Positions 24,976 to 50,363 of a DNA stretch of 64,000 bases are shown in pieces. The DNA comes from Emcibacteraceae bacterium (GTDB lineage Bacteria; Pseudomonadota; Alphaproteobacteria; Sphingomonadales; Emcibacteraceae). The translations under genes and the position numbers were made by a program. The stretch covers positions 372,001 to 436,000 of the forward strand of contig JAJFIR010000053.1 in assembly GCA_021774795.1 (NCBI GenBank), read 5' to 3'. Numbering within the stretch: the stretch's first letter is position 1; every line of letters starts with the position of its first letter. The notes below the pieces were generated by a model. That model ran no database searches. It worked only from the letters and a program-made list of their open reading frames with translations, and was not told the origin of the DNA.

Positions 24976-24992
24976 CCGAAAAAATTAATGTT

Positions 24993-25006: not shown

Positions 25007-25072
25007 TATTGGCTATCAAATTACGTAGTCATGTGTTACTTTATAACCCGTTAAGTGTGAGGGAGAGGCAAA

Positions 25073-27651: not shown

Positions 27652-27725
27652 GTTAAATAAATGGCGTCCAACGGGACCTGTGGTTAAATCAACATGTTTA
27701 TTCTGCTTTTTTGCAGCTAGCGTAA

Positions 27726-29231
27726 TTAATATTCCCCTTCAAGCGCAAGAAAGTCTGAAATAAGTTTTCTGGCATGACTTAAGTCGGTGTTACGCCAAGC
27801 ATTTGCGACCATGACATTTGGATCACCGGAATGCAAGCGTTCATACATTTGCTGGCGTGACCCAAAACCGTCGCCAGTCAAATCCCAGGCAAACTTGCAA
27901 AGCTTGTGTCGATCAAGCGGGGAACTTTCATGACCGCGCATATATACATCAAGATATTCCTTGATTTCCGGGTTTTTCCAATCATCAGCGGTTGGAAGAA
28001 ATATTAATGAACTTGTTCCAATATGTTCAACTAGTTCGATGAAACGTTCAGATACCATCGTCGTGAACGCGCGCCGCTCAGGTGCTTTGGCCGGTTTATA
28101 ATTACCGGCGGCTGTCTTTGATGCTTTTAACATTGATAGCTCAAAACTTGATTTTATTGCTCCCGTGTAAGTGCACATTTCACCTAACTTGGCAACGACT
28201 TCGGGTCGTTTGATAATTCCGGAAGTGGTAGCGAGCATTTCTGCAATTGCGCAAAGAATTTCCATGCGTAATACAGAAAGTGACCCACCGGCAAAACTCG
28301 CCCAGGTCATTACACCGCTTCTGAATAATTGATTGGCTTTTAATGGTTCACGATACAGAAAAACTCTTTCCCATGGGATAAAGACATCGTCAAAAACAAT
28401 TAAACTGTCCACTTCGTCGTACACAGCAGACGCCGGATGATCAATAGGATCCCGACCACCGTACGACTCCCGGGCAATTTGGCTAAGACCCGGTGCGTCA
28501 CAAGGAACAGTGAACCACATTGCATATTCTTTTTCTTCAGGTTTAAATCCATAAGTCGGGCAAATCATAATTTCGTTCGAAAATAATCCGAATGTATTAA
28601 AACGTGCCCCTCTGACGATAATGCCGTCATCACGTTCTTTCATGACGCGAACACAGCGGTCGGGGTCTTCAGGCGGGCGGAGTGATTTATCCATGCACGG
28701 ATCATGGAGGCCGTGTGATAAGCATAAATCATTTTGACGAGCGTATTTTAAATAAGACGTGGCATTTTCAGCAAGTTTGGGACTTAATTTTTCAAGCTCG
28801 AACCTCAAATCGTAAATGCCAACAGTCATACCAGCGACGAAATCTGGTAGGCGACCGAGCATACCCATCGCATCGTTAACCCAGATTTCCGTATTACCAC
28901 GTCGGCCTGCCAGCACTTCCTGCGTATCAGGAGCGGCGTACGAATATGAACAACGCACACCATCTTCATCAACGAAGCTCATGGTATCCTGATATTTGGG
29001 GTCATGTTGCTTGTCGTACGTTTCGGCAATTTTTTTTGCCATATTGCAAAAAGCAGGGTGGGTCGTTACGTCTTTTACGCGCTCACCTTTATAATATATA
29101 ACCCGTCCATCACGGAGACTTTCCAGAAAATCGGCACCGCTTTTTATGCCCTTACCTTTTACATCTTTGTAAGAGGGCATTTCTTCTGCCCGCTCGGTAA
29201 CTGGCTTATCCAAGGTGGTTTTAATATCCAT
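27726..29231 (-). CDS. HpaB-type FADH2-dependent aromatic monooxygenase, copy 2
   Basis: A 501-residue oxygenase of the same family as the product at 20026, with matching segments LESLRDGRVIYYKGERVKDV, ARQNDLCLSHGLHDP, IVRGARFNTFG, IVFDDVFIPWERVFL and LTGDGFGSRQQMYERLHSG. It hydroxylates (and may dehalogenate) a phenolic ring using reduced flavin supplied in trans. The ATG at 29231 is preferred since GGAG lies six bases upstream; the ATG two codons earlier touches that element. It heads a two-gene unit with the MATE exporter and has an operator copy 66 bases upstream. The substrate is unknown and probably differs from that of copy 1. Confidence 0.92.
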   Translation of the reverse strand: MDIKTTLDKPVTERAEEMPSYKDVKGKGIKSGADFLESLRDGRVIYYKGERVKDVTTHPAFCNMAKKIAETYDKQHDPKYQDTMSFVDEDGVRCSYSYAAPDTQEVLAGRRGNTEIWVNDAMGMLGRLPDFVAGMTVGIYDLRFELEKLSPKLAENATSYLKYARQNDLCLSHGLHDPCMDKSLRPPEDPDRCVRVMKERDDGIIVRGARFNTFGLFSNEIMICPTYGFKPEEKEYAMWFTVPCDAPGLSQIARESYGGRDPIDHPASAVYDEVDSLIVFDDVFIPWERVFLYREPLKANQLFRSGVMTWASFAGGSLSVLRMEILCAIAEMLATTSGIIKRPEVVAKLGEMCTYTGAIKSSFELSMLKASKTAAGNYKPAKAPERRAFTTMVSERFIELVEHIGTSSLIFLPTADDWKNPEIKEYLDVYMRGHESSPLDRHKLCKFAWDLTGDGFGSRQQMYERLHSGDPNVMVANAWRNTDLSHARKLISDFLALEGEY

Positions 29232-29297
29232 GATCATCTCCGTTAATTAGTATGGAAATAACTTACAGATCTTTAAGGAAATGATCAAGAAAATACT

Positions 29298-29311
29298 GTT
29301 ATTTTAATAAC
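29298..29311. promoter_or_regulatory. Candidate MarR operator, site 8
   Basis: GTTATTTTAATAAC, a palindrome apart from its centre and one mismatch to the consensus, 66 bases upstream of the second HpaB gene and 12 bases after the stop of the UbiD gene. Confidence 0.55.
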
Positions 29312-29323
29312 ACTATATTAGCG

Positions 29324-30772
29324 TTAAATTTTATCCAAAATATGCTTGAATTTCTTTTGAACCTTTTTCATTTGTACTTCCGTGCAGCGTGCGACAGGCG
29401 GGAATTCATCGATCCATGAAAAGGGTCTGCATGCATCAACAATGGCACGTGAATTGGTTTTTTGTCCTTTGGGAATGCGTGGATCAAGTGGGCCGCTCCA
29501 TGCGTCCCTGATGAAATCAATGCTTGTTGCGGGGTCACATCTTGTACTTAACGCCCAAAGAACTTCAAACATGTTTGTCGGATCAATGTCTTCATCAACA
29601 ACAATTGTCCAGCGCCCCATATAACTTGCAGACTGGCAGTTGGCGGCCATCATGGCGGCTTGTTTTGCGTGACCGCCGTATGCCTGCTTTAACGAAATTA
29701 CGTTAAACATACGTGCGCCGCCGGCTTCATGGCACCAAACGCCCTGAACGCCATTTAAGCCTGCTTTTTCGATTTCGTCCCAGATCATACCTGATTTCAT
29801 CACGCATTTACAGAACGAGAAATCAGAAGGGGGCATCATCGGGCTGGCAATGGTCATTATCGGTTTTGTTCGGTGATATACTCGTTCCACTTTCATTGTC
29901 GGTTCATTGCTTACTTCACTCGCATAATATCCGGTGAATTCACCAAACGGGCCTTCTGGTAAAGTCTTATCAGGGTACATGGCGCCTTCTAATACAATTT
30001 CACTATGTGATGGTATGGGAAGGCCGTAAAGTTCACTTTTTACGGTTTCGAACGGAATGCCGCGATGGCCGCCAGCCCATGCAAATTCGGAAAGGCCGTA
30101 CTTAATTTCATTACCGGAAGCTAAGAACAACAAAGGATCGTGACCAATACTGATGAGTACAGGACACGGTTTTCCTTGCGCCCAATATTTTTCGCGAATT
30201 TGACGCCCTTGTTTACCCGGTGACATCCAAAGGCCGACAGTGTTTTTATTATGAAGCATTGATCGGTACGTACCGATGTTGGTCCAATCATCTCCCGGGT
30301 CATGCATGATCACAAGATCGTCGGTTCCGATGTACCGACCGCCATCAAGTTCATGCAAAAAAGGAACAGGAAATTTATATAAATCAACATCATCATCGCG
30401 GTCTATATTTTCCATAATCGGGCCATCGTCTACTTCAACTGCCGGGATAGGCGCATATCCTTTCATGCGCTCACGATATGATTTAACCACATCCATAGGA
30501 CATTCTGGAACCGGAAACCCAAGCGTTATTGCCAAGCGCTTTGACGAATTGGTAAGTCCGGAAACAACCGTTTGACCATCATCAAAACCGGGAACGTCGG
30601 TGAATTGAATGGCCGGGGGGTTATCCGCATTTTTGTGATAAACCGCTTCCATCAATGTGCCCATTTCAAGGTCCCAATCGGCGCCCGGGATTTTAAGAAG
30701 TTCACCTGATTTTTCTACTCTTGCAATGAGTTCTCGTAAGTCTTTATGGGGTGCATCATATTCGTTATACAT
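29324..30772 (-). CDS. UbiD-family decarboxylase
   Basis: A 482-residue decarboxylase of the UbiD type, which uses prenylated FMN to remove (or add) a carboxyl group on an aromatic or unsaturated acid. Segments DLRELIARVEKSGELLKI, PFGEFTGYYA with a catalytic Glu, and ARMFNVISLKQAYGGHAKQA are typical. A prenyltransferase UbiX, needed to make the cofactor, is not in the window and may be elsewhere. It is the last gene of a four-gene unit with a LigB dioxygenase, an amidohydrolase and a solute-binding-fold protein, so it is likely to act before or after ring hydroxylation in the same route. Confidence 0.92.
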   Translation of the reverse strand: MYNEYDAPHKDLRELIARVEKSGELLKIPGADWDLEMGTLMEAVYHKNADNPPAIQFTDVPGFDDGQTVVSGLTNSSKRLAITLGFPVPECPMDVVKSYRERMKGYAPIPAVEVDDGPIMENIDRDDDVDLYKFPVPFLHELDGGRYIGTDDLVIMHDPGDDWTNIGTYRSMLHNKNTVGLWMSPGKQGRQIREKYWAQGKPCPVLISIGHDPLLFLASGNEIKYGLSEFAWAGGHRGIPFETVKSELYGLPIPSHSEIVLEGAMYPDKTLPEGPFGEFTGYYASEVSNEPTMKVERVYHRTKPIMTIASPMMPPSDFSFCKCVMKSGMIWDEIEKAGLNGVQGVWCHEAGGARMFNVISLKQAYGGHAKQAAMMAANCQSASYMGRWTIVVDEDIDPTNMFEVLWALSTRCDPATSIDFIRDAWSGPLDPRIPKGQKTNSRAIVDACRPFSWIDEFPPVARCTEVQMKKVQKKFKHILDKI

Positions 30773-30787
30773 TGATGGTTCCTTATT

Positions 30788-31762
30788 TCATTGTATGCCG
30801 AGAATTTTGGCAGCATTACCGCCGAGCATGCCCGTAATTTCATCTTCGGTCAAATCCAGATCACGGATGTTTTGAATATATTCTGCGACTGTTCCGCCGT
30901 CGGTTGTGAAATTATATGGATAATCAGTACCAAATAATATTCGGTCAGGTCGAATGGTCGTAAGCGCACAATTAACGGCGTTCATTCCGCCTTCAAATCC
31001 GGCCATATCAAAATATAATGTATCAAATAATTTGCGGAAATTTTCTTTATAAGGGGGTCCAAATGGTGGCTCTCCACCACAATCAGTCCAGAAATTTTCT
31101 CCTCTGACATCGATATATCGCTCCACTCTCTCGAGGGTTGATGCAATGCCGCCACCTAAATGCGCAATAGCAAAAGTCAGGTCAGGAAATTCTGTTAGCA
31201 CACCCCCTAAAATCAAGCGAAGTGTATTAAGGGCGACATCGGCTTCGCGGGTGAATGATATATTTAAATTATAATCCGCGTCATACGCATAATATCCTTT
31301 GGGTACGCCGCTTACATGAATAAATATCGGCAGTTTGTACTCGTTCATTTTTTTGTAAAATGGCCAGAGTTTGCGGCTATCGAGCATTTCACCGGAATTT
31401 TGCGGGCTAATAATCACACCATCAAACCCAAACTTATTAAGTCCTCTATCCAGTTCGGCTGATGCTCCTTCTTCGAGCGGCAGGCAAGGCGATAAATAAA
31501 ATAATTTATCAGGATAATTTTGTTTTAGTTCGCCGTAATAATCATTGCACATGGTGCATTGTTTGACGGAAATTGGCGAAGATGAAATGACGCATATATC
31601 GATGCCCGAACCGTTCATATATTCAAGGTGCTTATCTACATCATAGACTTCTTTTTTTAAATGAATTGCCACTTTACCATTGCGCAAGACCACATCACCA
31701 TTTCCGCCCCTGCCGTCATAAACGGCTTTTGGTGACATATGATGCTGCCAGTCTATTATCAT
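30788..31762 (-). CDS. Amidohydrolase family 2 protein (ACMSD/resorcylate decarboxylase type)
   Basis: A 324-residue metal-dependent enzyme of the ACMSD superfamily; relatives include non-oxidative aromatic acid decarboxylases and ring-cleavage product hydrolases. The usual N-terminal H-x-H is here Q6-x-H8 (in MIIDWQHHMSP), while the later histidines (IHVSG, AHLGGG) and the metal Asp (FGTDYPYN) are kept. Some decarboxylases of this fold have Glu in place of the first His; Gln is unusual. Located between UbiD and LigB 2 in one unit with short gaps (15 and 16 bases). Substrate unknown. Confidence 0.85.
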   Translation of the reverse strand: MIIDWQHHMSPKAVYDGRGGNGDVVLRNGKVAIHLKKEVYDVDKHLEYMNGSGIDICVISSSPISVKQCTMCNDYYGELKQNYPDKLFYLSPCLPLEEGASAELDRGLNKFGFDGVIISPQNSGEMLDSRKLWPFYKKMNEYKLPIFIHVSGVPKGYYAYDADYNLNISFTREADVALNTLRLILGGVLTEFPDLTFAIAHLGGGIASTLERVERYIDVRGENFWTDCGGEPPFGPPYKENFRKLFDTLYFDMAGFEGGMNAVNCALTTIRPDRILFGTDYPYNFTTDGGTVAEYIQNIRDLDLTEDEITGMLGGNAAKILGIQ

Positions 31763-31778
31763 GAGCTTGTTCCCAACA

Positions 31779-32786
31779 TTATTTCCAAGTCATAAAACCC
31801 ATCGCGTTGCCGGTTCCTGCTTCTGATCGGTAACAGGGTATATAATCAAGCATGTTAATTTTAAGGCAGCCTGATTTTATAATTGCTGCGGTGGTGATCC
31901 AGTTTTTTATCTCTGATGTTCCTGACCGGAAATAGCTTTCCGACAAGCTCGCCAGTTTTTCCATATCGAGGATTTTTAAAGCGTCTATCACTATGCCATC
32001 AAATTCTTCATCAATAACAAAATGACTTAAACCGCCGGAGCCGCAAACGGCGACCCGATAATTTTTATCATAATTCAAAACGGCTTTACCTATCGCTTCA
32101 CCAAGTGCGACACAGCGTGCCGCAGTCGGTTGATTTGGCGGGTAAAAGGTATTCAGGCAAACATGTACCGCTGGAATTGGCATTTGCATAAGGCGGCGGT
32201 ATACAAATCCGTATGCGTGTGACATGCCGCGTTTTCCGTTCGGGCCATCTGGTAATGATTTCATGGTCGCAATATCAAAATTGTCAGCGGTTAAAGATGA
32301 GATTATATGAGTTGAAAGATCAGCGTCTATTGGATAGCTGGTGTTTTCACGCGCGGAACTTCCCCGCGCAGCGACAGCAATACCCGGCGGCAGTTTAGCC
32401 AGTCTCTCGGGTGGGATAGCCATATGATCTACAGTATCACCATAAAGCATGCTGATCGCAGGCGTGTTGTTTTCATTAAAGACTTCCTTTTGATCGTTTC
32501 CGATAATGATTAAAATATCCGGATCGACCTGTTCAAGATTGGCTTTTAATTGTTCGATTGATTTTTGGCATTGCTCATGGCGCTGAGTGCGCACAGGTAA
32601 AGAAGACTGATGATCAAGGTTTTCGTCTTTTCGAAGCTCAACAAGTTGATCATAGACATAAGAGTTCTCTTTAAATTCCAGTGAAGGGTTCTTCTTGTCG
32701 GCTTCAACTCGTAAATGCCATTTGTCAGGTGGTGTTGAGAGAAGTGGACTATGTGAAGTGCCAAACCCGTAAACTATTTGAGCCAT
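31779..32786 (-). CDS. LigB-type extradiol ring-cleavage dioxygenase, copy 2
   Basis: A 335-residue class III extradiol dioxygenase, paralogue of the enzyme at 6221. It keeps His12 (GTSHSPLLS), GNDQKEVFN, TFYPPNQPTA, GSGGLSHFVIDEEFD and the YIPCYRSEAGTGNAMGF tail. The central region (residues 110-170) is the most different, which may reflect another substrate. It stands between the amidohydrolase and the solute-binding-fold gene. Since two such enzymes are kept in the regulon they probably open different ring compounds. Confidence 0.87.
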   Translation of the reverse strand: MAQIVYGFGTSHSPLLSTPPDKWHLRVEADKKNPSLEFKENSYVYDQLVELRKDENLDHQSSLPVRTQRHEQCQKSIEQLKANLEQVDPDILIIIGNDQKEVFNENNTPAISMLYGDTVDHMAIPPERLAKLPPGIAVAARGSSARENTSYPIDADLSTHIISSLTADNFDIATMKSLPDGPNGKRGMSHAYGFVYRRLMQMPIPAVHVCLNTFYPPNQPTAARCVALGEAIGKAVLNYDKNYRVAVCGSGGLSHFVIDEEFDGIVIDALKILDMEKLASLSESYFRSGTSEIKNWITTAAIIKSGCLKINMLDYIPCYRSEAGTGNAMGFMTWK

Positions 32787-32806
32787 ATCATTCCTTGTTT
32801 TGCGTT

Positions 32807-33685
32807 TTATTGAATGGTCGATTCTTCATAGCTAGCGTGACCACCTTTATCCGTATCAAAAATTGGTCTTTCATCAACCCACTTTTGCGTATTGTCGTAT
32901 ATTTCTCTGCTATAAGGAAGAAAAACGATCCGCTCTCCCGGTCCGAAGCTTCTGGTGTCCATTATTTTTTGAAATCTTTCCGGAAAATCCTGCTCAAAAT
33001 AATGAGTGTATAAATCGTGTCTAAGATCTATATCTGCCTGTGCTCTGGCTAGTGCGCGGTAATATTTATCTAAATCTTCTTCTGTTGCATCGTCCTGCGC
33101 CATAGCCGCGATCATGAATGTCGTATCTATAATTTTTCTGTAACCGAGTTGCTCCGCTAAATACATTGGTGCGCCAAAAAGTGTGGCGGCCGGTATCTGG
33201 CCGTCTAACAATAATTCAATTCGTTGAAAAAGCATGCCACCGAAATGAAGATTTATATCAGAACCGTCCATATAGGGCTCCAGCGCCTGGATGGTGGCAT
33301 AATGGCTACCGGATTGATAACCGACCGTAATTTTTATCCCTTTTAAATCTTCTGGCGTTTTAACATCAGAATCTTTAGGTACAAAAATACCGGCGGGTGT
33401 TACTGAATATGCTTTAGCATATAATTTTCCGTGTCCGGCAGCGGCGGCCTTATTTACCGTCCAATGACACGCTGAACTTACGTCGCATGTCCTTCCTTGT
33501 TCGAATGACTGGTAAGCACCGCTGATTTTATCTTTCGGTAAATCTTCCGCTGATTTTATGCTTAATTTTGCCATTCGGTCTTTCTTGATGAAGCTGTAAT
33601 CAAGTCCTTCATCTTCGAAATATCCTTTTTCCTCTGCGACCCATTCCTGAAGCCGCATATGAGGGCCAATAACCAATTTACTCAT
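32807..33685 (-). CDS. Signal-less solute-binding-fold protein (NMT1/SsuA-like; possible decarboxylase)
   Basis: A 292-residue protein with the type 2 periplasmic binding protein fold: VAEEKGYFEDEGLDYSFI near the start, a VTPAGIFVPKDSDVKTPEDL hinge region and KITVGYQSGSHY. It starts directly at the mature fold with no signal peptide (AGGGA precedes the ATG), and no ABC permease or ATPase lies nearby, so it should be cytoplasmic. 4,5-Dihydroxyphthalate decarboxylase is a known catabolic enzyme with this fold, which makes an enzyme role plausible next to LigB, amidohydrolase and UbiD genes. A cytoplasmic sensor is the alternative. It is the first gene of its unit and has operator copies upstream. 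Confidence 0.8.
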   Translation of the reverse strand: MSKLVIGPHMRLQEWVAEEKGYFEDEGLDYSFIKKDRMAKLSIKSAEDLPKDKISGAYQSFEQGRTCDVSSACHWTVNKAAAAGHGKLYAKAYSVTPAGIFVPKDSDVKTPEDLKGIKITVGYQSGSHYATIQALEPYMDGSDINLHFGGMLFQRIELLLDGQIPAATLFGAPMYLAEQLGYRKIIDTTFMIAAMAQDDATEEDLDKYYRALARAQADIDLRHDLYTHYFEQDFPERFQKIMDTRSFGPGERIVFLPYSREIYDNTQKWVDERPIFDTDKGGHASYEESTIQ

Positions 33686-33721
33686 AGCCTGATCCCTAAT
33701 TTATTATTCTTGCTTAATAGT

Positions 33722-33735
33722 GTTATTATCATAAC
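33722..33735. promoter_or_regulatory. Candidate MarR operator, site 9
   Basis: GTTATTATCATAAC, one mismatch to the consensus, 36 bases upstream of the solute-binding-fold gene that heads the LigB2-UbiD unit. Confidence 0.6.
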
Positions 33736-33755
33736 TAATAAGGTTTAAGTCAAGT

Positions 33756-33769
33756 GTTATTATAATAAT
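33756..33769. promoter_or_regulatory. Candidate MarR operator, site 10
   Basis: GTTATTATAATAAT, one mismatch to the consensus, 34 bases centre-to-centre from site 9. It lies 25 bases before the short rightward frame at 33795, so it may once have controlled a gene in that direction. Confidence 0.55.
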
Positions 33770-33794
33770 ACTGTTGTGGATAAAAGGATAGGAA

Positions 33795-33926
33795 GTGAAG
33801 CAAAATTCATCATTTACAGTAAGTATTTTAATGATGATGTCCTATTCGCCTGTATTCGCGCAAGAATCTCAGTTTACTGATATTTCAAAGCAAACCGTTA
33901 AATTCAATTCCCTTTATTTTATGTAA
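33795..33926 (+). pseudogene. Signal-peptide remnant of an exported protein (43 codons)
   Basis: A GTG-initiated frame of 43 codons with AGGA a few bases upstream. Its first 22 residues look like an export signal: a short polar start (MKQNSS), a hydrophobic core (SILMMM) and a cleavage-site-like PVFA-QES. The frame then ends after 20 further residues, eight bases short of the convergent PEP-hydrolase-like gene. An operator copy precedes it. The simplest reading is the 5' stub of a deleted outer-membrane receptor or periplasmic protein; a genuine tiny secreted peptide cannot be ruled out. Confidence 0.45.
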
Positions 33927-33933
33927 GGAAACT

Positions 33934-34764
33934 TTATGCAAGGGGAAGTTTTTTAAATGCCTCTACCTGGCGTGTGATAGCCCGTTCGGTTGGCAATCTT
34001 TCGATGCTAGATGCACCGAAGAAACCATTAATGCCGGGCATCCGTGAAAGAGCTTCTGCTACTGCATCTGGCTCGTCCAATGGGCCGCCATGACAAATAA
34101 CGATAATATCTTTATTTATGCTGCGTCCTGCTTCAGCAATTTTCATCACTTTTTCAATTGTTTCATCCAAACTATATGCAACAGCAGCGCCGATGCTACC
34201 TGCGGTCGTTAATCCGACATGGGCCACCAATTGGTCTGCACCGGCTTTTGCCATATCAATTGCTTCTTGCTCAGTAAATACATATGGAGACGTAAATAAA
34301 TCGATTTCATGAGCCAGACGGATCATTTCAACCTCTTTATCAAATCCCATTCCTGTACCTTCAAGATTGTCCCTAAAATTTCCATCAATAAGGCCAACTG
34401 TAGGGAAATTCTGCACACCTGAAAACCCCGCTTCTTTTAGCTGTCTAAGAAACACGAGCATCAAACGAAAGGGGTCCGTGCCGCATACTCCCGCCAAAAC
34501 CGGTATGTCATTTACTACGGGCAGAACTTCAGCCGCCATTTCCATAACGATGCCATTGGCATCACCAAAGGGCATATATCCTGAAAGCGAACCACGGCCA
34601 GCCATACGGTAACGACCCGAATTATAGATAATCAACAAATCTGCGCCACCGGCCTCTGCAAATTTTGCCGAAATACCGGTTCCTGCACCACAGCCTACAA
34701 TAGGGATGCCCTGCGAAATTTGCTTATGCAATCTTTCCAGCATTTCTTTGCGTGATAAAGCCAT
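33934..34764 (-). CDS. Phosphoenolpyruvate hydrolase-like TIM-barrel protein
   Basis: A 276-residue protein of the family annotated as PEP hydrolase-like or TIM-barrel signal transduction protein (PF09370). Recognisable segments are GIPIVGCGAGTGISAKFAEA, YNSGRYRMAGRGSLSG, PVLAGVCGTDPFR and HVGLTTAGSIGA. Relatives often occur with, or fused to, a Tm-1-like (UPF0261) partner, which is absent here. It lies between the LigB2-UbiD unit and a LysR gene, without an obvious operator of the repeated type upstream. The chemical function in bacteria is not firmly known; a C-C lyase or hydrolase acting on a small keto acid is possible. Confidence 0.82.
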   Translation of the reverse strand: MALSRKEMLERLHKQISQGIPIVGCGAGTGISAKFAEAGGADLLIIYNSGRYRMAGRGSLSGYMPFGDANGIVMEMAAEVLPVVNDIPVLAGVCGTDPFRLMLVFLRQLKEAGFSGVQNFPTVGLIDGNFRDNLEGTGMGFDKEVEMIRLAHEIDLFTSPYVFTEQEAIDMAKAGADQLVAHVGLTTAGSIGAAVAYSLDETIEKVMKIAEAGRSINKDIIVICHGGPLDEPDAVAEALSRMPGINGFFGASSIERLPTERAITRQVEAFKKLPLA

Positions 34765-34888
34765 TATGGTTCCTCTTATTTATAAATTTCTTATAGAAAA
34801 TGTCATATATTAAAATACTATCTTCGGCAATAGCGACATCGGCGTTAAATTTTTGACCTGTTAAAGTTTATACTGTTGTACGATCAGC

Positions 34889-35785
34889 CTATTGCTCATC
34901 CAATGTTTGCGAAGTAAGCCATTCTTTTAAAGCATTCACAGGTGAGTAATTTACATGGGATTTTGGGGTCATCAAGTAATATCCTGCACTGTTTTCAAGA
35001 GGCAGATCTATTAAGATTTCGAGTTCACCTCGTTCTAATTCAGATTGAATAAGAAAATGAGGAAGCATAGCAACGCCGAGGCCTGCGACTGCGGCTTGGG
35101 TCAACATAGAAAACTGCTCTAGTACCATACCCTTGTCTGTCGGTGGAGCAAGATTGTTTTGGGTAAACCATTCTTTCCACGCGTTAGGTCTTGTTTCCAG
35201 ATGAAGTAGTGGCACGTTTGTTAGTTCTGTTGCTTTTCTTGTTACATGCTCACCAATCAGTAATGGGGACGCCACAGGGACGGCTTCTTCAGACATAAGA
35301 AACGTTCCTTCTGTATCTGGCCAGTCAGGATAGCCGAAATGAATGGCCGCATGCAGATTTTCGTTATTAAAATCGAAAGCTGATAGTTTACTGGTAAAAT
35401 TTACAGTGACCTGAGGATTTTTCTTAAGAAAGTCGGGAAATCTGGGCATTAACCAACGCATGCCAAATGTAGGAAGGATCGCCAAATTTAAGGTCTTGCC
35501 TTGCGTATCGCTCATCGCGTTGAGGGAGGCATTTCTTACAGTTCTAAGTGCTACAGATACTTCTTTAGCGTAAACCTCGCCAGTTTCGGTGAGCTTGATC
35601 GATTTTTTTATTCTTTTAAAAAGAGCCACGCCCAACTGATTTTCAAGAGCACTAACCTGCCTGCTAATCGCTCCTTGAGTTAAGTTTAATTCCTGCGCGG
35701 CGGCAGTAAAACTACCGTTTCGCGTGGCGGCATCAAAAGCCAATAACATACTGGTGCTGGGGATGAGGCGTCTTTGGCCGAGCAA
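34889..35785 (-). CDS. LysR-family transcriptional regulator (GcvA-like), divergent from the aminomutase operon
   Basis: A 298-residue LysR regulator. The N-terminal helix-turn-helix is in LLAFDAATRNGSFTAAAQEL through LTQGAISRQVSALENQLGV; the effector domain follows from about residue 90. The start appears to be a TTG at 35785; a later in-frame ATG (in SMLLAF) would cut off little. It is transcribed away from the KamA operon, and the 174-base gap has a 14-base inverted repeat (35800-35912), the usual arrangement for a LysR protein controlling its divergent neighbour. The effector is expected to be a substrate or intermediate of the amino acid route. Confidence 0.92.
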   Translation of the reverse strand: MLGQRRLIPSTSMLLAFDAATRNGSFTAAAQELNLTQGAISRQVSALENQLGVALFKRIKKSIKLTETGEVYAKEVSVALRTVRNASLNAMSDTQGKTLNLAILPTFGMRWLMPRFPDFLKKNPQVTVNFTSKLSAFDFNNENLHAAIHFGYPDWPDTEGTFLMSEEAVPVASPLLIGEHVTRKATELTNVPLLHLETRPNAWKEWFTQNNLAPPTDKGMVLEQFSMLTQAAVAGLGVAMLPHFLIQSELERGELEILIDLPLENSAGYYLMTPKSHVNYSPVNALKEWLTSQTLDEQ

Positions 35786-35959: not shown

Positions 35960-37372
35960 ATGAACGTACAAAAGCCGATTAGAAAGAAATACGAACCAAG
36001 TGACTGCGAAAGTGAATTTCTGGCGAAAGTTGAAAACGCCAAATATGACCGACAAATAGTTGCGGGTCTTCAAAAATTTATTGATGGCAAAGTCGATGAT
36101 GATATGAAAGATTTTTATAGCCGAGAAGAGATAGATGCTATTTCAGCGTTAAAAGGCACGAACCGTGATCTTGAAGCGCGAATGCCGGTTAAAATCACCC
36201 GTCATTATTTCGACCGTGCTCGTCATAGTGCACCAATTAGAACGTTGATCAAAGCCAGCCCGAATGAAACGTTTGACCTTGATGGTTCGGAAGACCCAGG
36301 GAAACAAATGAGCTATAGTCCTGTTGAAGGACTTATTCATAAATATGAGCTTGGCTTGATTTATGTGGCGTCTACTTGTTCCGCTCATTGTAGGTTCTGC
36401 TACCGCGAAGAGCTTATAGCGAAAAAAGAGATTGTTCGTGAAGATGGTTCTATCCAGGCCAAAGGCCTTGCTCAAATCGCTGAACTAACTGAATATATTC
36501 GCGAACATAATGAAATCGTTGAAGCAAACGGTGGCCATCATCCGGAAACGGGCCGCGAAAGACTTCGTGAGATTCTTATGTCCGGTGGTGATCCAATGGT
36601 TCTTGCCAATAAGGGTATAGCGTCATGGTGGGCTGCCCTGTCTGAAGCCGGCATCGAAAGTATTCGTTTGGGTACTAAGGAACTTGCGTTTTTTCCGGAC
36701 CGTTTTGATGATAGTTTCTTTAAAATGGTTGATGATTTTCATGAAGCATATCCGGAAACAAAAATTCGTTTCATGATTCACTTTAATCACCCGGATGAGT
36801 TTTTAGAAAAAGACGAAGACGGTAACTTTATTGATCTACCGGGCGGTGGCCTTAAATGGGTGGCCAGCACAAAACGCGCGGTTGCGCAATTTGGTAAACG
36901 CAACTGGATCACCGTTGATAATCAATCGCCGATTATTAAAAATATTAATAACGATTCTGATGCGCTGCGTATTATGCAACGTGAACTACGCCGCAACAAA
37001 GTTGAAAATCATTATTTCTTTTGCGGCCGTGATATTGTTGGCCATAAAGCCTTTAACGTTTCGATTGAAGAAGCGTGGAATATTCTCAATACTTCGCAAC
37101 GCGGTCTTTCCGGTGTAGAAGCACATGCACGTTTATCCATTACCCATTATTACGGTAAAACAGAAGTAGTCGCCGTAACCAATGAGCCAATGGAAGGGGT
37201 GAAAGGCGGTGAAAATGGTGTGGTTATCTTTAAACTTCTTCGTTCCGCAGAAGATGCACCAAAAAAAGGACATACCGCGATTGTTGGCCGTAACCCGGAT
37301 GCGATTTGGTTTGACGGATATAAAGATCGTGTGATTTATGATGAAGCAGGTTTATTCAGTATCAAAGCTTAA
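35960..37372 (+). CDS. KamA-type radical SAM/PLP 2,3-aminomutase
   Basis: A 470-residue member of the lysine 2,3-aminomutase family, which moves an alpha-amino group to the beta carbon using S-adenosylmethionine, a [4Fe-4S] cluster and PLP. The radical SAM cysteines are Cys140, Cys144 and Cys147 (CSAHCRFC). LMSGGDPM and the HFNHPDE segment match KamA. The PLP lysine is probably Lys400 in HYYGKTEV. The protein has inserts relative to clostridial lysine aminomutase, so lysine specificity cannot be assumed. The ATG at 35960 follows AAGGG; an upstream TTG is less likely. It heads an operon with CoA-transferase, aminotransferase and thiolase genes, which suggests a catabolic, not biosynthetic, role. 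2-Aminoadipate, glutamate or lysine are candidate substrates. Confidence 0.88.
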   Translation: MNVQKPIRKKYEPSDCESEFLAKVENAKYDRQIVAGLQKFIDGKVDDDMKDFYSREEIDAISALKGTNRDLEARMPVKITRHYFDRARHSAPIRTLIKASPNETFDLDGSEDPGKQMSYSPVEGLIHKYELGLIYVASTCSAHCRFCYREELIAKKEIVREDGSIQAKGLAQIAELTEYIREHNEIVEANGGHHPETGRERLREILMSGGDPMVLANKGIASWWAALSEAGIESIRLGTKELAFFPDRFDDSFFKMVDDFHEAYPETKIRFMIHFNHPDEFLEKDEDGNFIDLPGGGLKWVASTKRAVAQFGKRNWITVDNQSPIIKNINNDSDALRIMQRELRRNKVENHYFFCGRDIVGHKAFNVSIEEAWNILNTSQRGLSGVEAHARLSITHYYGKTEVVAVTNEPMEGVKGGENGVVIFKLLRSAEDAPKKGHTAIVGRNPDAIWFDGYKDRVIYDEAGLFSIKA

Positions 37373-37391
37373 ATCATAAGGATCCAAATTT

Positions 37392-38102
37392 ATGATCAAT
37401 AAAAAAGTGAACTCTGTTCATGATGCGGTGGCAAATATTAAAGATGGTGCCACCGTCATGATTGGCGGGTTCGGTGAGGCGGGAAGCCCTATCGAACTTA
37501 TTCATGCGCTGATCGATCATGGCGCAAAGGGCCTAACCGTTGTTAATAATAATACGGGCTCCGGGCATGTCGGTTTAGCGGCCCTTATCGAGAACAAACG
37601 TGTTGCTAAAATGATTTGTTCTTTTCCTCGAACGGCAAATTCAACGGTTTTCCCAGAGCTTTATAAAAAAGGCGAACTTGAACTTGAACTTGTCCCGCAA
37701 GGAACACTAGCTGAACGCATTCGTGCCGGTGGCGCAGGTGTGCCGGCGTTTTATACGGCGACATCTGTTGGAACATCGCTTGCTGACGGAAAAGAAATGC
37801 GCAATATTGATGGCCGTGATTATGTGCTTGAATATGGCTTAAAAGCGGACTTTGCGCTGATTAAGTGTTTGAAAGCGGATCGTTACGGCAACCTTGTTTA
37901 TAATAAAACAGCCCGAAATTTTGCGCCAATTATGGCGATGGCGGCGGATACAACTATCGTACAAACGAAACAGTTTGTTGAAGCGGGTGATATCGATCCG
38001 GAAGCTGTTGTCACCCCCGGTATCTTTGTTGATCAGATAATCACGGTTGCTAATCCCTTACTCGAATCTGAACTTGTTAATGCCGGGGAGGTGTACCCAT
38101 GA
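37392..38102 (+). CDS. pcaI: 3-Oxoadipate CoA-transferase subunit A
   Basis: The 236-residue alpha subunit of a succinyl-CoA:3-oxoacid CoA-transferase. Segments MIGGFGEAGSPIELI, CSFPRTANSTVF, VPQGTLAERIRAGGAG and KTARNFAPIMAMAA follow the PcaI pattern closely (as against ScoA/AtoD), so 3-oxoadipate is the likely acceptor. It overlaps subunit B by four bases (ATGA), giving coupled translation. In this operon it would activate the keto acid made by the aminomutase and aminotransferase; it could also take 3-oxoadipate from maleylacetate reductase. Confidence 0.9.
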   Translation: MINKKVNSVHDAVANIKDGATVMIGGFGEAGSPIELIHALIDHGAKGLTVVNNNTGSGHVGLAALIENKRVAKMICSFPRTANSTVFPELYKKGELELELVPQGTLAERIRAGGAGVPAFYTATSVGTSLADGKEMRNIDGRDYVLEYGLKADFALIKCLKADRYGNLVYNKTARNFAPIMAMAADTTIVQTKQFVEAGDIDPEAVVTPGIFVDQIITVANPLLESELVNAGEVYP

Positions 38103-38752
38103 GCGACGCTGATCAAATTGGTTGGAACCGTGAGCAAATGGCCGAACGCGCGGCGCAAGATATCCCCAATGGTGCTTACGTAAATTTAGGTATTGGCATT
38201 CCTGAAAAAGTAGTTCGTTATGTGCCGGATGGCCGCGAGGTTATATATCATACGGAAAATGGCTTGCTTGGCATGGGCGATGCGCCAGAAGAAGGACAAG
38301 AAGACCCGGAGCTAATTAATGCCGGTAAGAAATTGGTTACCACCATACAGGGTGCTGCTTATTTTCACCATGCAGATAGCTTTTCAATGATCCGCGGCAG
38401 TCATATTGATATATGCGTACTCGGTGCCATGCAGGTTGCTGAAAATGGTGATCTTGCCAATTGGTCAACGGGTAATCCTGATGCGATTCCGGCCGTTGGT
38501 GGAGCGATGGATTTGGTTGCAGGTGTCAAAACCATAAATGTAATTACGCAACATTGCACGAACAAAGGATATCCAAAACTTGTATCCGAATGCACATTTC
38601 CTTTAACTGGAGCGGGTGTTGTAAGCCGCATTTATACTGATCTAGCAGTGATCGATGTGGCGCCGGAGGGATTTAAGCTCGTTGAACTGGCACCCGGCGT
38701 TGATTTCGACTATGTGCAGGAAAGAACCGGCTGCAACCTTATTGCGGCATAA
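38099..38752 (+). CDS. pcaJ: 3-Oxoadipate CoA-transferase subunit B
   Basis: The 217-residue beta subunit. It contains the catalytic glutamate in TENGLLGMG, NLGIGIPEKVV near the start, the FHHADSFSMIRG segment and SECTFPLTGAGVVSRIYTDLAV, all as in PcaJ. With subunit A it transfers CoA from succinyl-CoA to a 3-oxo acid. Fourteen bases separate its stop from the aminotransferase start. Confidence 0.9.
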   Translation: MSDADQIGWNREQMAERAAQDIPNGAYVNLGIGIPEKVVRYVPDGREVIYHTENGLLGMGDAPEEGQEDPELINAGKKLVTTIQGAAYFHHADSFSMIRGSHIDICVLGAMQVAENGDLANWSTGNPDAIPAVGGAMDLVAGVKTINVITQHCTNKGYPKLVSECTFPLTGAGVVSRIYTDLAVIDVAPEGFKLVELAPGVDFDYVQERTGCNLIAA

Positions 38753-38765
38753 AAGGATTAATAAC

Positions 38766-40073
38766 ATGTCTAGAAGTTCAGAATTATATGAACGTGGTCT
38801 TAAAGTTATGCCGGGTGGTTGCAGCCGAAACACGATATTGCGTAAGCCCCATCCATTATATGTGGAAAAGGGCGAAGGATGTTATGTAACAGACATCGAA
38901 GGTGTGAAGCGTGTCGATTTTGCCAATAACATGTGTTCGCTTATTCACGGTCACGCACACCCGCAAGTCACGGCAGTGGTGAGCGAACAACTTGCCAAAG
39001 GAACTGCGTTTACGATCGGCACCGAAATAGAAGTTGAATTTGCGGAACATATTGTTAATCGCAGTCCCGGTTTTGAAAAAATGCGATTTGTGAATTCAGG
39101 CACAGAGGCGGTGATGAGCTGCGTAAAAGCGTCGCGTGCATTCACGGGTCGATCAAAAATAGCCAAAGTCGAAGGGGCTTACCATGGTCTTTACGATTAT
39201 GCAGAAGTTAGCCAAACGTCAAAACCTGAAAATTGGGGTGACGCTGATAATCCAAATAGTGTGCCTGTTGCTTACGGTACACCAAAAGCAGCACTTGAAG
39301 ATGTTGTGATTATTCCTTTTAACCAACCAGAACACGCTCTTAAAATTTTGGAAGAAAATGCGGATGATATTGCCTGCGTTCTTCTTGATGTGATGCCGCA
39401 CCGCGTGGGATTGATCACAGCTGATGATGCGTTTATCCAAACCATTTATAATTGGACACGCAAAAATCAAAGTCTTCTTGTTTTTGATGAAGTAATTACG
39501 TTCCGTTCGCGCTACGGCGGTGCACAAGAATGGTATGAGGGCATTACCCCTGACTTAACCGCGATGGGTAAGATGATTGGTGGAGGTTTTCCGGTTGGGG
39601 CTCTTGCGGGTCGCGCCGATGTAATGGATGTTATGGACCCGTTAGCGAGTAAGGTACTTTTCCCGCATTCAGGGACGTTTTCTGCTAATCCGATTACAAT
39701 GGCCGCTGGTCTTGTTTCTATGAAGATGTTTGATAATAATGCCGTTCTTCGGCTTAATAAACTCGCGGATTATGCCCGTAATTCAATCAAAGAAGCAATA
39801 AAATTAGCTGATGTTCCGGCATGCGTAACGGGTGCAGGTTCAATGTTTCGTATTCATATGAAAGAGACGCCACCGATAAGTTACCGCGATGGTTTTGTAA
39901 CGCTCGAGCAATCCGCGCTGACAAAAACGTTGTTGGATCATTTGTTAGATGATGGCATTATGATGATCAATACTTGTTCCGGTGTGCTGTCAACTGTTAT
40001 GGCAGAAAAAGAAATTGATCGTTTGACAAATGCTGTTTTGAACGGTTTAAAGAAAATGAAAAATCAATTTTAG
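38766..40073 (+). CDS. Class III PLP aminotransferase (beta-amino acid/GSA-aminotransferase-like)
   Basis: A 435-residue fold-type I PLP enzyme of the glutamate-1-semialdehyde/beta-phenylalanine aminotransferase group. Visible are VNSGTEAVMSCVKASRA (residues 109-125), the PLP-nitrogen Asp241 in LLVFDEVITFRS, Lys269 in AMGKMIGGGFPVGA, and SGTFSANPITMAAG. The ATG at 38766 is preferred: a longer frame exists upstream but only inside pcaJ. Its place between CoA-transferase and thiolase genes, after a 2,3-aminomutase, argues for a transaminase that converts a beta-amino acid to a beta-keto acid, as beta-phenylalanine aminotransferase does. It is not likely to be HemL, which has a different context. 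Confidence 0.85.
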   Translation: MSRSSELYERGLKVMPGGCSRNTILRKPHPLYVEKGEGCYVTDIEGVKRVDFANNMCSLIHGHAHPQVTAVVSEQLAKGTAFTIGTEIEVEFAEHIVNRSPGFEKMRFVNSGTEAVMSCVKASRAFTGRSKIAKVEGAYHGLYDYAEVSQTSKPENWGDADNPNSVPVAYGTPKAALEDVVIIPFNQPEHALKILEENADDIACVLLDVMPHRVGLITADDAFIQTIYNWTRKNQSLLVFDEVITFRSRYGGAQEWYEGITPDLTAMGKMIGGGFPVGALAGRADVMDVMDPLASKVLFPHSGTFSANPITMAAGLVSMKMFDNNAVLRLNKLADYARNSIKEAIKLADVPACVTGAGSMFRIHMKETPPISYRDGFVTLEQSALTKTLLDHLLDDGIMMINTCSGVLSTVMAEKEIDRLTNAVLNGLKKMKNQF

Positions 40074-40083
40074 AGGTTAAAAT

Positions 40084-41283
40084 ATGAAAGACGTTTTTAT
40101 TTGTGATGCAATACGTACACCCATCGGCCGTTATGGAGGTGGACTTGCGGCGGTACGTGCAGATGATCTTGGTGCTGTTCCGATTGTAGCATTGATGGAA
40201 AGAAATAAAAATGTCGACTGGGCCGCTGTAAACGATTTAACATATGGCTGTGCGAACCAGGCGGGGGAAGATAACCGAAATGTGGGCCGCATGTCTGCGC
40301 TTCTTGCAGGATTACCGCAAGAAGTGGCCGCATCGACAGTAAACCGTCTGTGTGGTTCAGGACTTAATGCCATTGGTATATCTGCAAATGCGATTATGGT
40401 TGGTGAAGCAGAACTCTGCGTAGCAGGCGGTGTTGAAAGTATGTCGCGCGCGCCATTTGTTGTTGGTAAGTCGAATAATGCTTATGACCGCGGCCAGAAG
40501 ATGTACGACACGACAATGGGGTGGCGTTTTATCAATAAAAAACTCGAAAAAGAATATGGTACTGATACTATGCCGCAAACTGCTGAAAATCTGGCCGAAG
40601 AATTAAATATCAGCCGTGAAGATCAGGATAAGTTTGCTTATTGGAGCCAGAATAAGGCATCCGCTGCAATAGAAGCAGGGTACACGGCGAATGAAATAAC
40701 TGCGGTAACAGTGCCGCAGAGACGTATGGACGCTATTATCATTGATAAAGATGAACATCCACGTCAAACAAACCTGGGCAAAATGGCTACGCTTCGGCCT
40801 ATATTCGAAGGTGGAACCATTACGGCAGGAAATGCGTCGGGTATAAATGATGGTGCGGCAGCAACGCTTATTGCTTCAGAGAGTGCAGCGACAAAACATG
40901 GACTTGCACCGCGCGCCCGAATTCTGGGTATGGCGGTTGCCGGCGTACCGCCACGTACGATGGGGATTGGACCGGTTCCTGCCACTCAAAAGCTCCTTGC
41001 CCGACTTAATTTTTCGCTAGATGATATTGATGTTCTGGAACTGAACGAAGCTTTCGCGTCGCAGGTTCTTGCATGTACTCGCATGTTGAATATCGCAGAT
41101 GATGATCCACGTATTAATCCACAAGGTGGTGCCATAGCGTTCGGTCATCCCCTAGGAATGAGTGGAGCGCGGCTTATCACAACAGCGGTTAATCAGCTGG
41201 AACGTACAAACAAAAAACGCGCCCTTTGCACAATGTGTGTTGGTGTCGGTCAGGGTATTGCTATGGTGATTGAAAGAGTTTAA
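40084..41283 (+). CDS. pcaF: 3-Oxoadipyl-CoA thiolase
   Basis: A 399-residue type I thiolase. The nucleophile is Cys90 ([10 protein letters not shown]), the second-site His355 in [10 protein letters not shown] and Cys385 in [39 protein letters not shown] and ESMSRAPFV with the TMGWRFIN segment follow PcaF rather than acetoacetyl-CoA thiolases. It would split 3-oxoadipyl-CoA into succinyl-CoA and acetyl-CoA and is the last gene of the operon. Confidence 0.9.
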
Positions 41284-46895: not shown

Positions 46896-48362
46896 TTGAC
46901 AAAAAATTTGGGAAAAGTTTTAAGAAATTATGTTGATGGTGAGTTTGTCATAAGCAACCATAGTTTTAATAATATTAATCCGGTGAATGGTCAGATGGTG
47001 TGCAGGGTATCTGAAGCGGATAAGGACATTGTAGACCGTGCCGTAAAGTCAGCAAGAAAAGCACTCCACGGCGAATGGGGGAATATGGATGTATCGGAGC
47101 GGTGTAAAATACTTAACGCTCTGGCGGATGAAATTGAAAGACGTTTTGATGATTTTGTCGCTGCGGAAGTTGCCGATACGGGCAAGTCCTATTCTCAAGT
47201 GAAGAATATTGATATACCGAGGGGTGCCGCAAACTTTCGGGTGTTTGCTGATCTCATAAAGACAAGACCACCACAATCATTTGAAATGGATACGGCAGAT
47301 GGGAAAAGCGCGACAAGTTATGTTGTTAATAAACCTATCGGCGTGGTTGCTGTGGTGTCACCGTGGAACTTGCCATTACTTTTGATGACCTGGAAAGTCG
47401 CACCGGCACTGGCGTCGGGCAATACTGTTGTGGTTAAACCTTCTGAAGAAACACCTTCGACGGCAACGTTGCTTGCGGAAGTAATGCAAAATGTCGGGGT
47501 TCCAAAAGGCATATATAACCTTGTTCATGGCTTTGGCCCCAATTCGGCAGGTGAGTTCCTGGTGGGCCATGAAGATGTCGATTGCGTTACTTTTACGGGT
47601 GAGTCAAAAACAGGAACCGCGATTATGCAAAGTGCGGCACGAGACTTAAAACCTGTATCGTTTGAGCTTGGTGGTAAAAACGCAGCCATTATTTTTGCTG
47701 ATGCAGATTTCGATGCCGCAATAGCTGGTACTGTTCGATCTGTATTCACCAATTGTGGGCAGGTATGTCTTTGTTCTGAAAGAGTTTATGTTGAGCGACC
47801 GATATTTGATAAATTCGTAGCCGCGTTAAAAGAAAGAGCCGAGGAAATTAAAATTGGCAGACCGCAAGACGGATCAGATATGGGACCTTTAATTTCCACT
47901 AAACATCGCAAAAAAGTACTTTCGTATTTTTCTCTGGCACTCGAAGAAGGGGCGTCCTTAATAACAGGTGGTAAAGTGCCGGAATTTGGTGATGAGCGTG
48001 ATAATGGTTCTTTTATTGAACCGACAATTTGGACGGGTTTACCTGAAGATGCACGCTGCATTAAAGAAGAAATTTTTGGACCTGTTTGTCATATTGCACC
48101 ATTTGATAGAGAAGAAGAAGTAGTTGGTTATGCCAACGATACCAACTACGGTCTCGCCGCGGCAATTTGGACAAAAGATAGCTCAAAAGCTGATCGTGTA
48201 GGACGTCAGATGGAGGTGGGTATTTGTTGGATAAATGACTGGTTCCTGCGTGATTTAAGAACACCATTTGGCGGCGTAAAACTTTCAGGTATCGGCAGGG
48301 AAGGCGGCATGCATAGCCTTGATTTCTATTCTGAGCCTCTAACTATTTGTGTAAAGCATTAG
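46896..48362 (+). CDS. 2-Aminomuconate/2-hydroxymuconate semialdehyde dehydrogenase
   Basis: A 488-residue NAD-dependent aldehyde dehydrogenase. VSPWNLPLLLMTWKVAPAL, the catalytic-base region SFELGGKNAA (Glu257) and NCGQVCLCSER with Cys291 are visible, and the PFGGVKLSGIGREGG tail fits the AmnC/PraB/DmpC branch. It would oxidise 2-aminomuconate 6-semialdehyde, the decarboxylated ring-cleavage product of 3-hydroxyanthranilate. The start is a TTG at 46896 with GGAG eight bases upstream. It heads the operon with deaminase, dioxygenase and decarboxylase genes. Confidence 0.9.
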   Translation: MTKNLGKVLRNYVDGEFVISNHSFNNINPVNGQMVCRVSEADKDIVDRAVKSARKALHGEWGNMDVSERCKILNALADEIERRFDDFVAAEVADTGKSYSQVKNIDIPRGAANFRVFADLIKTRPPQSFEMDTADGKSATSYVVNKPIGVVAVVSPWNLPLLLMTWKVAPALASGNTVVVKPSEETPSTATLLAEVMQNVGVPKGIYNLVHGFGPNSAGEFLVGHEDVDCVTFTGESKTGTAIMQSAARDLKPVSFELGGKNAAIIFADADFDAAIAGTVRSVFTNCGQVCLCSERVYVERPIFDKFVAALKERAEEIKIGRPQDGSDMGPLISTKHRKKVLSYFSLALEEGASLITGGKVPEFGDERDNGSFIEPTIWTGLPEDARCIKEEIFGPVCHIAPFDREEEVVGYANDTNYGLAAAIWTKDSSKADRVGRQMEVGICWINDWFLRDLRTPFGGVKLSGIGREGGMHSLDFYSEPLTICVKH

Positions 48363-48370
48363 GAATTAGA

Positions 48371-48799
48371 ATGAGTAAAAACAGCGAAGTTATTGACGGA
48401 AAAGCCAGACCTCTTGGTGCTTATCCACATTTTAAAAGAGCGGGTGATTTTATATTCATTTCCGGCACCAGTTCAAGAAGAGCCGACAATAGTTTTGATG
48501 GTGTAACGGTCAGTGAAACCGGTAAGGTCACACTTGATATAAAAGCGCAAACTCACGCTGTCATTAAGAATATTGAGCAAACTTTGATCGCCGCAGGGGC
48601 CGGGTTGGCAGATCTTGTAGAAATAAGTACTTTTCTGATCAATATGGACGATTTCAAGGGATATAACGAAGTGTACGGCACTTATTTTGATCACACTGGC
48701 CCTGCGAGGACAACGGTTGCTGCAAAAGAACTGCCACATCCAAATTTACTGATAGAAATAAAAGCAATAGCGTTTGCACCTAAAACGGAGGAAAGATAA
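48371..48799 (+). CDS. 2-Aminomuconate deaminase (RidA/YjgF family)
   Basis: A 142-residue RidA-fold protein. FKRAGDFIFISGTSSRR, the VIKNIEQTLIAAGA helix, and the TGPARTTVAAKELPHPNL segment with the conserved Arg match the 2-aminomuconate deaminases of 2-nitrobenzoate and 3-hydroxyanthranilate pathways. It releases ammonia from 2-aminomuconate to give 4-oxalocrotonate (2-hydroxymuconate). The ATG at 48371 is used with AGGA upstream. Its last base overlaps the start of the dioxygenase gene. Confidence 0.85.
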   Translation: MSKNSEVIDGKARPLGAYPHFKRAGDFIFISGTSSRRADNSFDGVTVSETGKVTLDIKAQTHAVIKNIEQTLIAAGAGLADLVEISTFLINMDDFKGYNEVYGTYFDHTGPARTTVAAKELPHPNLLIEIKAIAFAPKTEER

Positions 48800-49353: not shown

Positions 49354-49354
49354 G

Positions 49355-50350: not shown

Positions 50351-50363
50351 AGCTAACCGTTAA

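Follow-up and report, generated by a model that had tools for sequence, protein, structure and literature searches.

What would a gene resembling radical S-adenosylmethionine (SAM) aminomutases do at the head of an operon that also encodes an aminotransferase and 3-oxoadipate-type enzymes? This question is raised by five plus-strand genes at positions 35960–41283 of a 64,000-nucleotide stretch of DNA from an Emcibacteraceae bacterium (GenBank assembly GCA_021774795.1, contig JAJFIR010000053.1, positions 372,001–436,000; hereafter the window), which encode, in this order, KamL, PcaI, PcaJ, a class III aminotransferase and PcaF. Judging from sequence, the operon is probably a module for the final part of lysine catabolism, leading from 2-aminoadipate via 3-aminoadipate, 3-oxoadipate and 3-oxoadipyl-coenzyme A (CoA) to succinyl-CoA and acetyl-CoA. 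The original prediction for this locus had described one operon, and its coordinates and gene order were confirmed. Neighbouring genes are separated by gaps of 10–19 bases or, in the case of PcaI and PcaJ, overlap by 4 bases, so that the arrangement is operon-like; promoter-like and terminator-like sites are no more numerous than expected by chance.

In the proposed route, lysine would be converted to L-2-aminoadipate by genes elsewhere in the genome, with a lysine 6-dehydrogenase-like or saccharopine-pathway-like enzyme acting first and a 2-aminoadipate-semialdehyde dehydrogenase acting next. KamL (35960–37372, 470 amino acids), a distant radical SAM relative of lysine 2,3-aminomutase (KAM) and the proposed 2-aminoadipate 2,3-aminomutase, would then move the amino group from C2 to C3 as a radical SAM/pyridoxal phosphate (PLP) enzyme, yielding 3-aminoadipate. 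The class III PLP aminotransferase (38766–40073), the proposed 3-aminoadipate aminotransferase, would form 3-oxoadipate; the PcaI-type subunit A (37392–38102) and PcaJ-type subunit B (38099–38752) of the proposed 3-oxoadipate CoA-transferase would convert 3-oxoadipate and succinyl-CoA to 3-oxoadipyl-CoA; and PcaF (40084–41283), a 3-oxoadipyl-CoA thiolase, would cleave this to succinyl-CoA and acetyl-CoA. We infer all reactions and their direction from the observed genes, their conservation, the gene links and the predicted KamL fold: the PcaIJ and PcaF steps follow from the enzyme families, and the KamL and aminotransferase steps from gene order, linkage and residues.

Comparison of KamL with curated models revealed scores of 74–92 bits against six KamA-family models, whose cut-offs range from 199 to 650 bits, and none was passed. 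Among them are TIGR03820 for lysine 2,3-aminomutase (74.1 bits, cut-off 525.4), TIGR00238 for KamA family radical SAM proteins (91.2 bits, cut-off 199.2) and TIGR04368 for glutamate 2,3-aminomutase (88.1 bits, cut-off 650). A Pfam scan of KamL at 1e-3 gave no match, and KamL is not among the ten PF04055 radical SAM matches of its own genome. KamA identity of the first gene was rejected because KamL falls below the cut-offs of all six KamA-family models matched. Analysis of an AlphaFold model of KamL (predicted local distance difference test score [pLDDT] 80.6, predicted template modelling score [pTM] 0.82) indicated that its best structural match is lysine 2,3-aminomutase (2a5h, Z 30.2, 318 aligned residues, 3.5 Å), followed by RlmN (Z 13.0), and Foldseek gave an E-value of 1e-17 against lysine 2,3-aminomutase. 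KamL is therefore predicted to be a radical SAM aminomutase-like protein with a KAM-like fold and a CxxxCxxC cluster motif. The three cysteines (C140, C144 and C147) are invariant in all 12 aligned KamL proteins, as are R149, R357 and K400; R149 lies at the position of R134 in KAM, and K400 occupies a GK motif where KAM would have its PLP lysine. The identity to KAM in the structural alignment is 21%. Of the KamA-type 2,3-aminomutase originally predicted, the KAM-like fold thus stands as a structural prediction, whereas no curated model identifies the protein as KamA.

The residues of the putative active site bear on the substrate. In the profile alignment, KAM residues 253–313 align with KamL without gaps and Asp293 lies opposite Arg357, while the KamL stretch A390–K400, where Asp330 would lie, contains no Asp; the Asp330 equivalent is placed near H396 by MAFFT and at S393 by counting back from Lys400, and neither residue is acidic. 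Asp293 and Asp330 of KAM presumably bind the side-chain amine of lysine, and we take glutamate 2,3-aminomutase to have other residues at both places, with Lys at the Asp293 position. On this sequence comparison, Arg in place of Asp293 argues against a lysine substrate and for a distal carboxylate, and is not specific for one acid. The inspection of binding residues proposed in the original prediction thus yielded an Arg at a lysine-binding place, and glutamate is compatible with the same residue. Since Arg357 also occurs in other KamA-like proteins, it counts against lysine more than for aminoadipate. For the same reason, Arg357 was rejected as proof of an aminoadipate substrate.

KamA-like proteins outside the KamL group were also observed. 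Four KamL-like proteins from other alphaproteobacteria (L113–L116, in G359, G277, G348 and G344; 43–46% identity, 513–547 residues) are paralogues that lie in unrelated neighbourhoods on short loci, and the two that were scanned fall below all six KamA-family cut-offs. The window assembly contains a KamA-like gene (L008, G000:C14) with Asp at both the Asp293 and Asp330 places, on a contig that is perhaps a contaminant; by eye, it adjoins spermidine-synthase-like and ATP-grasp-like genes. On plasmid pRLN3 of Rhizobium leguminosarum, a KamA-like gene (L144) is flanked by a pair of similar genes, both annotated as members of the biotin-carboxylase (ATP-grasp) family. Many other rhizobial plasmids carry KamA-like genes; the neighbours given here are those of the pRLN3 record.

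The original assignments of PcaI, PcaJ, PcaF and the class III aminotransferase held, with all four passing their family models. PcaI scores 354.5 bits against TIGR02429 (pcaI_scoA, cut-off 128.5) and PcaJ 296.8 bits against TIGR02428 (pcaJ_scoB, cut-off 243.55), two subfamily models that cover acetoacetate-type enzymes too. PcaJ contains the ENG motif, which we take to carry the catalytic Glu. The window PcaI is 65% identical to the PcaI of two pcaIJF operons, compared with 45% to the ScoAB-like paralogue of its own genome. PcaF passes the 3-oxoadipyl-CoA thiolase equivalog model TIGR02430 (655.8 bits, cut-off 597); its first PDB match is an unspecified thiolase and the second to fourth are beta-ketoadipyl-CoA thiolases. 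The other thiolase matches in the window genome are 36–51% identical to PcaF. The aminotransferase passes PF00202 (209.2 bits, cut-off 30.5) and fails TIGR00713 for HemL, glutamate-1-semialdehyde aminomutase (320.6 bits, cut-off 527.3); in the PDB ranking, 6k8h and ForI are nearest, with glutamate-1-semialdehyde aminomutases next and beta-transaminases lower.

Comparison with other genomes revealed that the partner genes recur with KamL. One non-exhaustive scan of a species collection by short peptide patterns yielded 27 loci, of which 26 (L021–L046, KamL 64–93% identical) were tallied and a 26% relative (L047) was left out; in L044 and L046 the sequence stops inside or at KamL and shows no downstream genes. 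PcaI and/or PcaJ were found in 18 of the 26 loci, the aminotransferase in 18, PcaF in 10 and a LysR-type gene in 17. Because orthologues of the partners share the locus with KamL in most of the 26, the gene set is no chance array. L042, whose record is titled "uncultured bacterium", has the order KamL-PcaI-PcaJ-aminotransferase; L033, L034, L036 and L045 have PcaIJ and the aminotransferase convergent with KamL, on the strand opposite to it, and L037 has PcaIJ in this arrangement and no aminotransferase. The gene set, whose linkage in relatives the original prediction had made a point of, is linked in most loci and unlinked in some. Among 40 relatives, 20 had a KamL match at 1e-3, and 18 remained after two distant ones (G029, 33%, and G030, 29%) were dropped. 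Of these 18 relatives, 15 have an aminotransferase orthologue (at least 58% identical), and the 22 others have none (Fisher p 2e-8, shared ancestry ignored); a 39% paralogue in G038, which has no KamL, was not scored as an orthologue. A search of 385 genomes of the class at 1e-60 matched KamL in 6. The only close one besides the window genome (G000) is G334 (71%), and the other four (G277, G344, G348 and G359) are the 43–46% paralogues with other neighbourhoods. At 1e-100, 2 of 396 genomes of the class of G040 were matched, both already among the known KamL genomes.

Two further loci connect the CoA-transferase with the lysine pathway. In G017 (L110, 6465–9403), a 500-residue dehydrogenase lies directly downstream of PcaI-PcaJ, which are 71% and 72% identical to those of the window, and on their strand; it passes NF050084, the model for L-piperidine-6-carboxylate dehydrogenase (827.5 bits, cut-off 730). 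We take this enzyme type (2-aminoadipate-semialdehyde/piperideine-6-carboxylate dehydrogenase) to form 2-aminoadipate from its semialdehyde. KamL of G017 stands without partners (L031, L101), at a locus other than that of PcaIJ and the dehydrogenase. On plasmid pTM2 of Tistrella mobilis, PcaIJ (67% and 70%) is separated from a dehydrogenase on the opposite strand, which passes NF050084 with 797.8 bits, by three genes encoding a DUF1338 protein, a GcvA regulator and one more protein. No KamL of at least 60% identity was found on pTM2, the sole record in that identity band being Mesorhizobium. The original prediction had suggested looking for the gene set beside lysine-to-aminoadipate genes, and PcaIJ indeed directly precedes such a dehydrogenase in G017 and lies near one in Tistrella. 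As a separate observation, an aminotransferase, the 2-aminoadipate-semialdehyde dehydrogenase, a short DUF1338 protein, the GcvA regulator and PcaIJ lie close together on pTM2 (L124:12427-20219).

Analysis of plasmid MesoLj113b2 of Mesorhizobium sp. 113-3-3 revealed a second kind of CoA-transferase at the same place. There, KamL (69%, deposited as "hypothetical protein") is followed by the ferredoxin FdxA, the aminotransferase (61%) and then CoA-transferase alpha and beta genes, of which the alpha gene is apparently interrupted. The neighbouring ferredoxin would be a fitting electron source for a radical SAM enzyme. The best match of the beta subunit is glutaconate CoA-transferase, a family other than PcaIJ, and weak cross-family matches exist between the two types. 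The subunit is 80.7% identical to the one directly before pcaF in the pca (protocatechuate/3-oxoadipate) operon of Chelatococcus, where a glutaconate-type alpha-beta pair lies between pcaG and pcaF; Methylocella is similar. In Phyllobacterium, a glutaconate-type alpha-beta pair lies upstream of pcaF, with pcaDCH a few genes away. Since both PcaIJ and the glutaconate type occur beside KamL and the aminotransferase, two CoA-transferase families from 3-oxoadipate operons accompany the same pair.

The 2-aminoadipate would have to come from other genes of the cell. The window genome passes NF050084 (786.0 bits, cut-off 730), as do 10 of the 11 KamL genomes searched and one of the two KamL-free genomes searched (G014 passes, G020 does not). 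For the first step, the window genome encodes a saccharopine-dehydrogenase-fold protein beside an Lrp-like gene; no curated model names this protein, and its best PDB match is PH1688, which we take to be a lysine dehydrogenase. Other members of the genus carry a gene pair instead, presumably lysine-ketoglutarate reductase and saccharopine dehydrogenase, the second gene of which matches PF16653. The sole KamL relative without a first-step lysine gene is a genome that is 53% complete. A different ending may occur in G027, which has no KamL: HglS (701.8 bits, cut-off 550) lies upstream of the reductase-saccharopine pair and a dehydrogenase, and the cluster, which also has a flavin-linked-looking oxidase, resembles the HglS way to finish lysine. 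None of the 18 KamL relatives gave an HglS match, and it was also missing from 20 of the 22 others. Since it occurs in only 2 of the 40 genomes (G027 and G039, both without KamL), its absence from KamL genomes says little and was set aside as a test.

Several observations weigh against the proposed route. At the level of residues, the stretch that maps Asp293 to Arg357 scores 2.7 bits alone in HMMER, though it is ungapped and concurs with a MAFFT alignment that includes the KamA-like protein L008, and Arg357 is common to the KamL paralogues and other KamA-like proteins. PcaJ is 56% identical to a pca-operon PcaJ compared with 53% to the paralogue in its own genome. At the level of loci, L030, L031, L032 and L035 have KamL and none of the four partner enzymes, the Chloroflexi loci L040 and L041 have the KamL-aminotransferase pair only, and the KamL genomes G017, G018 and G019 lack an aminotransferase orthologue. 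Among the genes that would supply 2-aminoadipate, NF050084 is passed by the KamL-free G014 and not by the KamL genome G041, and co-occurrence with putative first-step lysine genes is weak (17 of 18 KamL relatives vs 15 of 22 others; p 0.054, phylogeny ignored). Downstream of the dehydrogenase, G019 carries a succinate-glutarate CoA-transferase-like gene (504 bits, cut-off 750), and in the Chloroflexi genome G040 an acyl-CoA dehydrogenase precedes the NF050084-type dehydrogenase; the former scores 213.8 bits against the glutaryl-CoA dehydrogenase model, its fourth-best model, below the cut-off of 470. These glutaryl-type matches make a glutaryl route possible there, and G019 and G040 may use it.

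Different readings of the same genes were considered. It is unlikely that the set is a loose one, in which PcaIJF would finish aromatic compounds while KamL and the aminotransferase serve separately, for example in making or recycling a beta-amino acid. The two Chloroflexi with the KamL-aminotransferase pair only and the four loci with unpartnered KamL would fit such a division, as would the abundance of aromatic and kynurenine genes in the window, including the tryptophan/3-hydroxyanthranilate cluster at 46896–51314, and the outcome of a genome-wide search, in which any further PcaI match in the window genome stayed at or below 49% and any further thiolase match at or below 51%. It is opposed by the 18 of 26 loci that PcaI and/or PcaJ share with KamL, by the position of PcaIJ beside a 2-aminoadipate dehydrogenase in G017, and by the Mesorhizobium set, where the corresponding place is occupied by a transferase from a different family. 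A reverse, biosynthetic module, which would build 2-aminoadipate from succinyl-CoA and acetyl-CoA through 3-oxoadipate and 3-aminoadipate, is compatible with the genes alone, and every step is reversible in principle; we regard it as highly improbable, as thiolase condensation is established to be uphill and the linked dehydrogenase, from knowledge of its family, oxidises toward 2-aminoadipate.

The remaining readings keep the module and change its input. With glutamate, which the original prediction had named as an alternative, the intermediates would be 3-aminoglutarate and 3-oxoglutarate, and PcaIJ and PcaF would deliver malonyl-CoA and acetyl-CoA. A positive residue replacing Asp293 fits any dicarboxylic amino acid, and one KamA relative, glutamate 2,3-aminomutase, is known to act on glutamate; the residues leave glutamate compatible. 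The distance of KamL from that enzyme's model (88.1 against 650 bits), PcaF and the two families of 3-oxoadipate-type CoA-transferases, which indicate a C6 acid, and the adjacency of PcaIJ to a 2-aminoadipate-forming dehydrogenase in G017 make this reading unlikely, and established metabolism has no need of such a route for glutamate. Lysine itself, the other alternative input of the original prediction, would be turned by KamL into beta-lysine, followed by transamination and cleavage, perhaps after N-acetylation, as in a beta-lysine-degrading Pseudomonas. The predicted KamL fold is that of lysine 2,3-aminomutase; nevertheless, Arg replaces Asp293 in 12 of 12 KamL proteins and A390–K400 is without Asp, no acetyltransferase is among the five genes, PcaIJ and PcaF are dicarboxylate enzymes, and the separate KamA-like gene with both Asp residues is present in the assembly, on the possibly contaminating contig. 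Lysine as input is thus very unlikely. The originally predicted reaction order with 2-aminoadipate as input appears, on these sequence comparisons, to be the best reading, with the G017 and Tistrella links, the Mesorhizobium transferase and the Arg for Asp293 pointing to it.

In the surroundings of the operon, a LysR-type regulator is encoded divergently on the minus strand (34889–35785); its nearest model is GcvA (259.8 bits, below the cut-off of 288). The cluster at 46896–51314 includes an aldehyde dehydrogenase that passes the 2-hydroxymuconic semialdehyde model, 3-hydroxyanthranilate 3,4-dioxygenase and, by eye, RidA-like, ACMSD-like amidohydrolase and tryptophan-2,3-dioxygenase-like proteins; the counterpart of the last in G001 scores 297 bits against a model cut-off of 391, and there a similar tryptophan cluster adjoins the reductase-saccharopine gene pair. 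Inspection of translations by eye revealed numerous aromatic-degradation-like genes at 6221–8527 and 17825–35785 (including LigB-like, UbiD-like, 4-hydroxyphenylacetate 3-monooxygenase-like and amidohydrolase genes), some of them in two diverged copies.

The proposed route shares parts with several known systems. KamL resembles KamA in its predicted fold over 318 residues, the cluster motif and the conserved Arg and Lys, and differs in its Arg for Asp293, the lack of Asp in the Asp330 stretch and scores below the TIGR03820 and TIGR00238 cut-offs. Glutamate 2,3-aminomutase is likewise a KamA relative with a dicarboxylic substrate, and KamL lies far below its cut-off. In clostridial lysine fermentation (KamA, KamDE, Kdd, Kce), too, the first step is the shift of an amino group within a C6 amino acid by a radical SAM enzyme; the substrate proposed here is another, and the five genes include none of the KamDE, Kdd or Kce type. 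The last two steps and their enzyme families (PcaIJ, PcaF) are those of the lower beta-ketoadipate pathway, in which 3-oxoadipate comes from protocatechuate or catechol, whereas here it would derive from an amino acid. The glutaryl-CoA route likewise starts from 2-aminoadipate and loses carbon as CO2, whereas the proposed route would keep all six carbons. To our knowledge, described bacterial routes finish 2-aminoadipate via 2-oxoadipate, by glutaryl-CoA or HglS. The HglS route, from 2-oxoadipate to D-2-hydroxyglutarate, also finishes 2-aminoadipate, but through 2-oxoadipate (PMC7286885). Nearly all MetaCyc lysine pathways are stated to end at glutaryl-CoA (PMC5653290), and the title of another paper ties alphaproteobacterial biotin synthesis to lysine catabolism (PMC7645780). 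No description of a 3-aminoadipate route was found among the papers listed from a literature collection that leaves most subscription journals outside its coverage; the term 3-aminoadipate is absent from that collection, and the two matches to such wording were a meteorite paper and, for "beta-aminoadipic", a reference title on a beta-lactam precursor (PMC9854754).

On balance, we favour the view that the operon represents an undescribed terminal branch of lysine catabolism, in which a 2-aminoadipate 2,3-aminomutase subfamily would feed the beta-ketoadipate pathway, and that the KamL-aminotransferase pair has passed across phyla, reached a conjugative plasmid of rhizobia and recruited two families of 3-oxoadipate CoA-transferase. 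Its novelty would lie in the way familiar types of enzyme are combined and in the new radical SAM subfamily at the head of the operon, and the proposal names the "hypothetical protein" of Mesorhizobium as a candidate aminomutase. If true, a route by way of carbon 3 would differ in logic from the 2-oxoadipate routes, link the breakdown of amino acids to that of aromatic compounds, and extend the radical SAM aminomutases to a further substrate.

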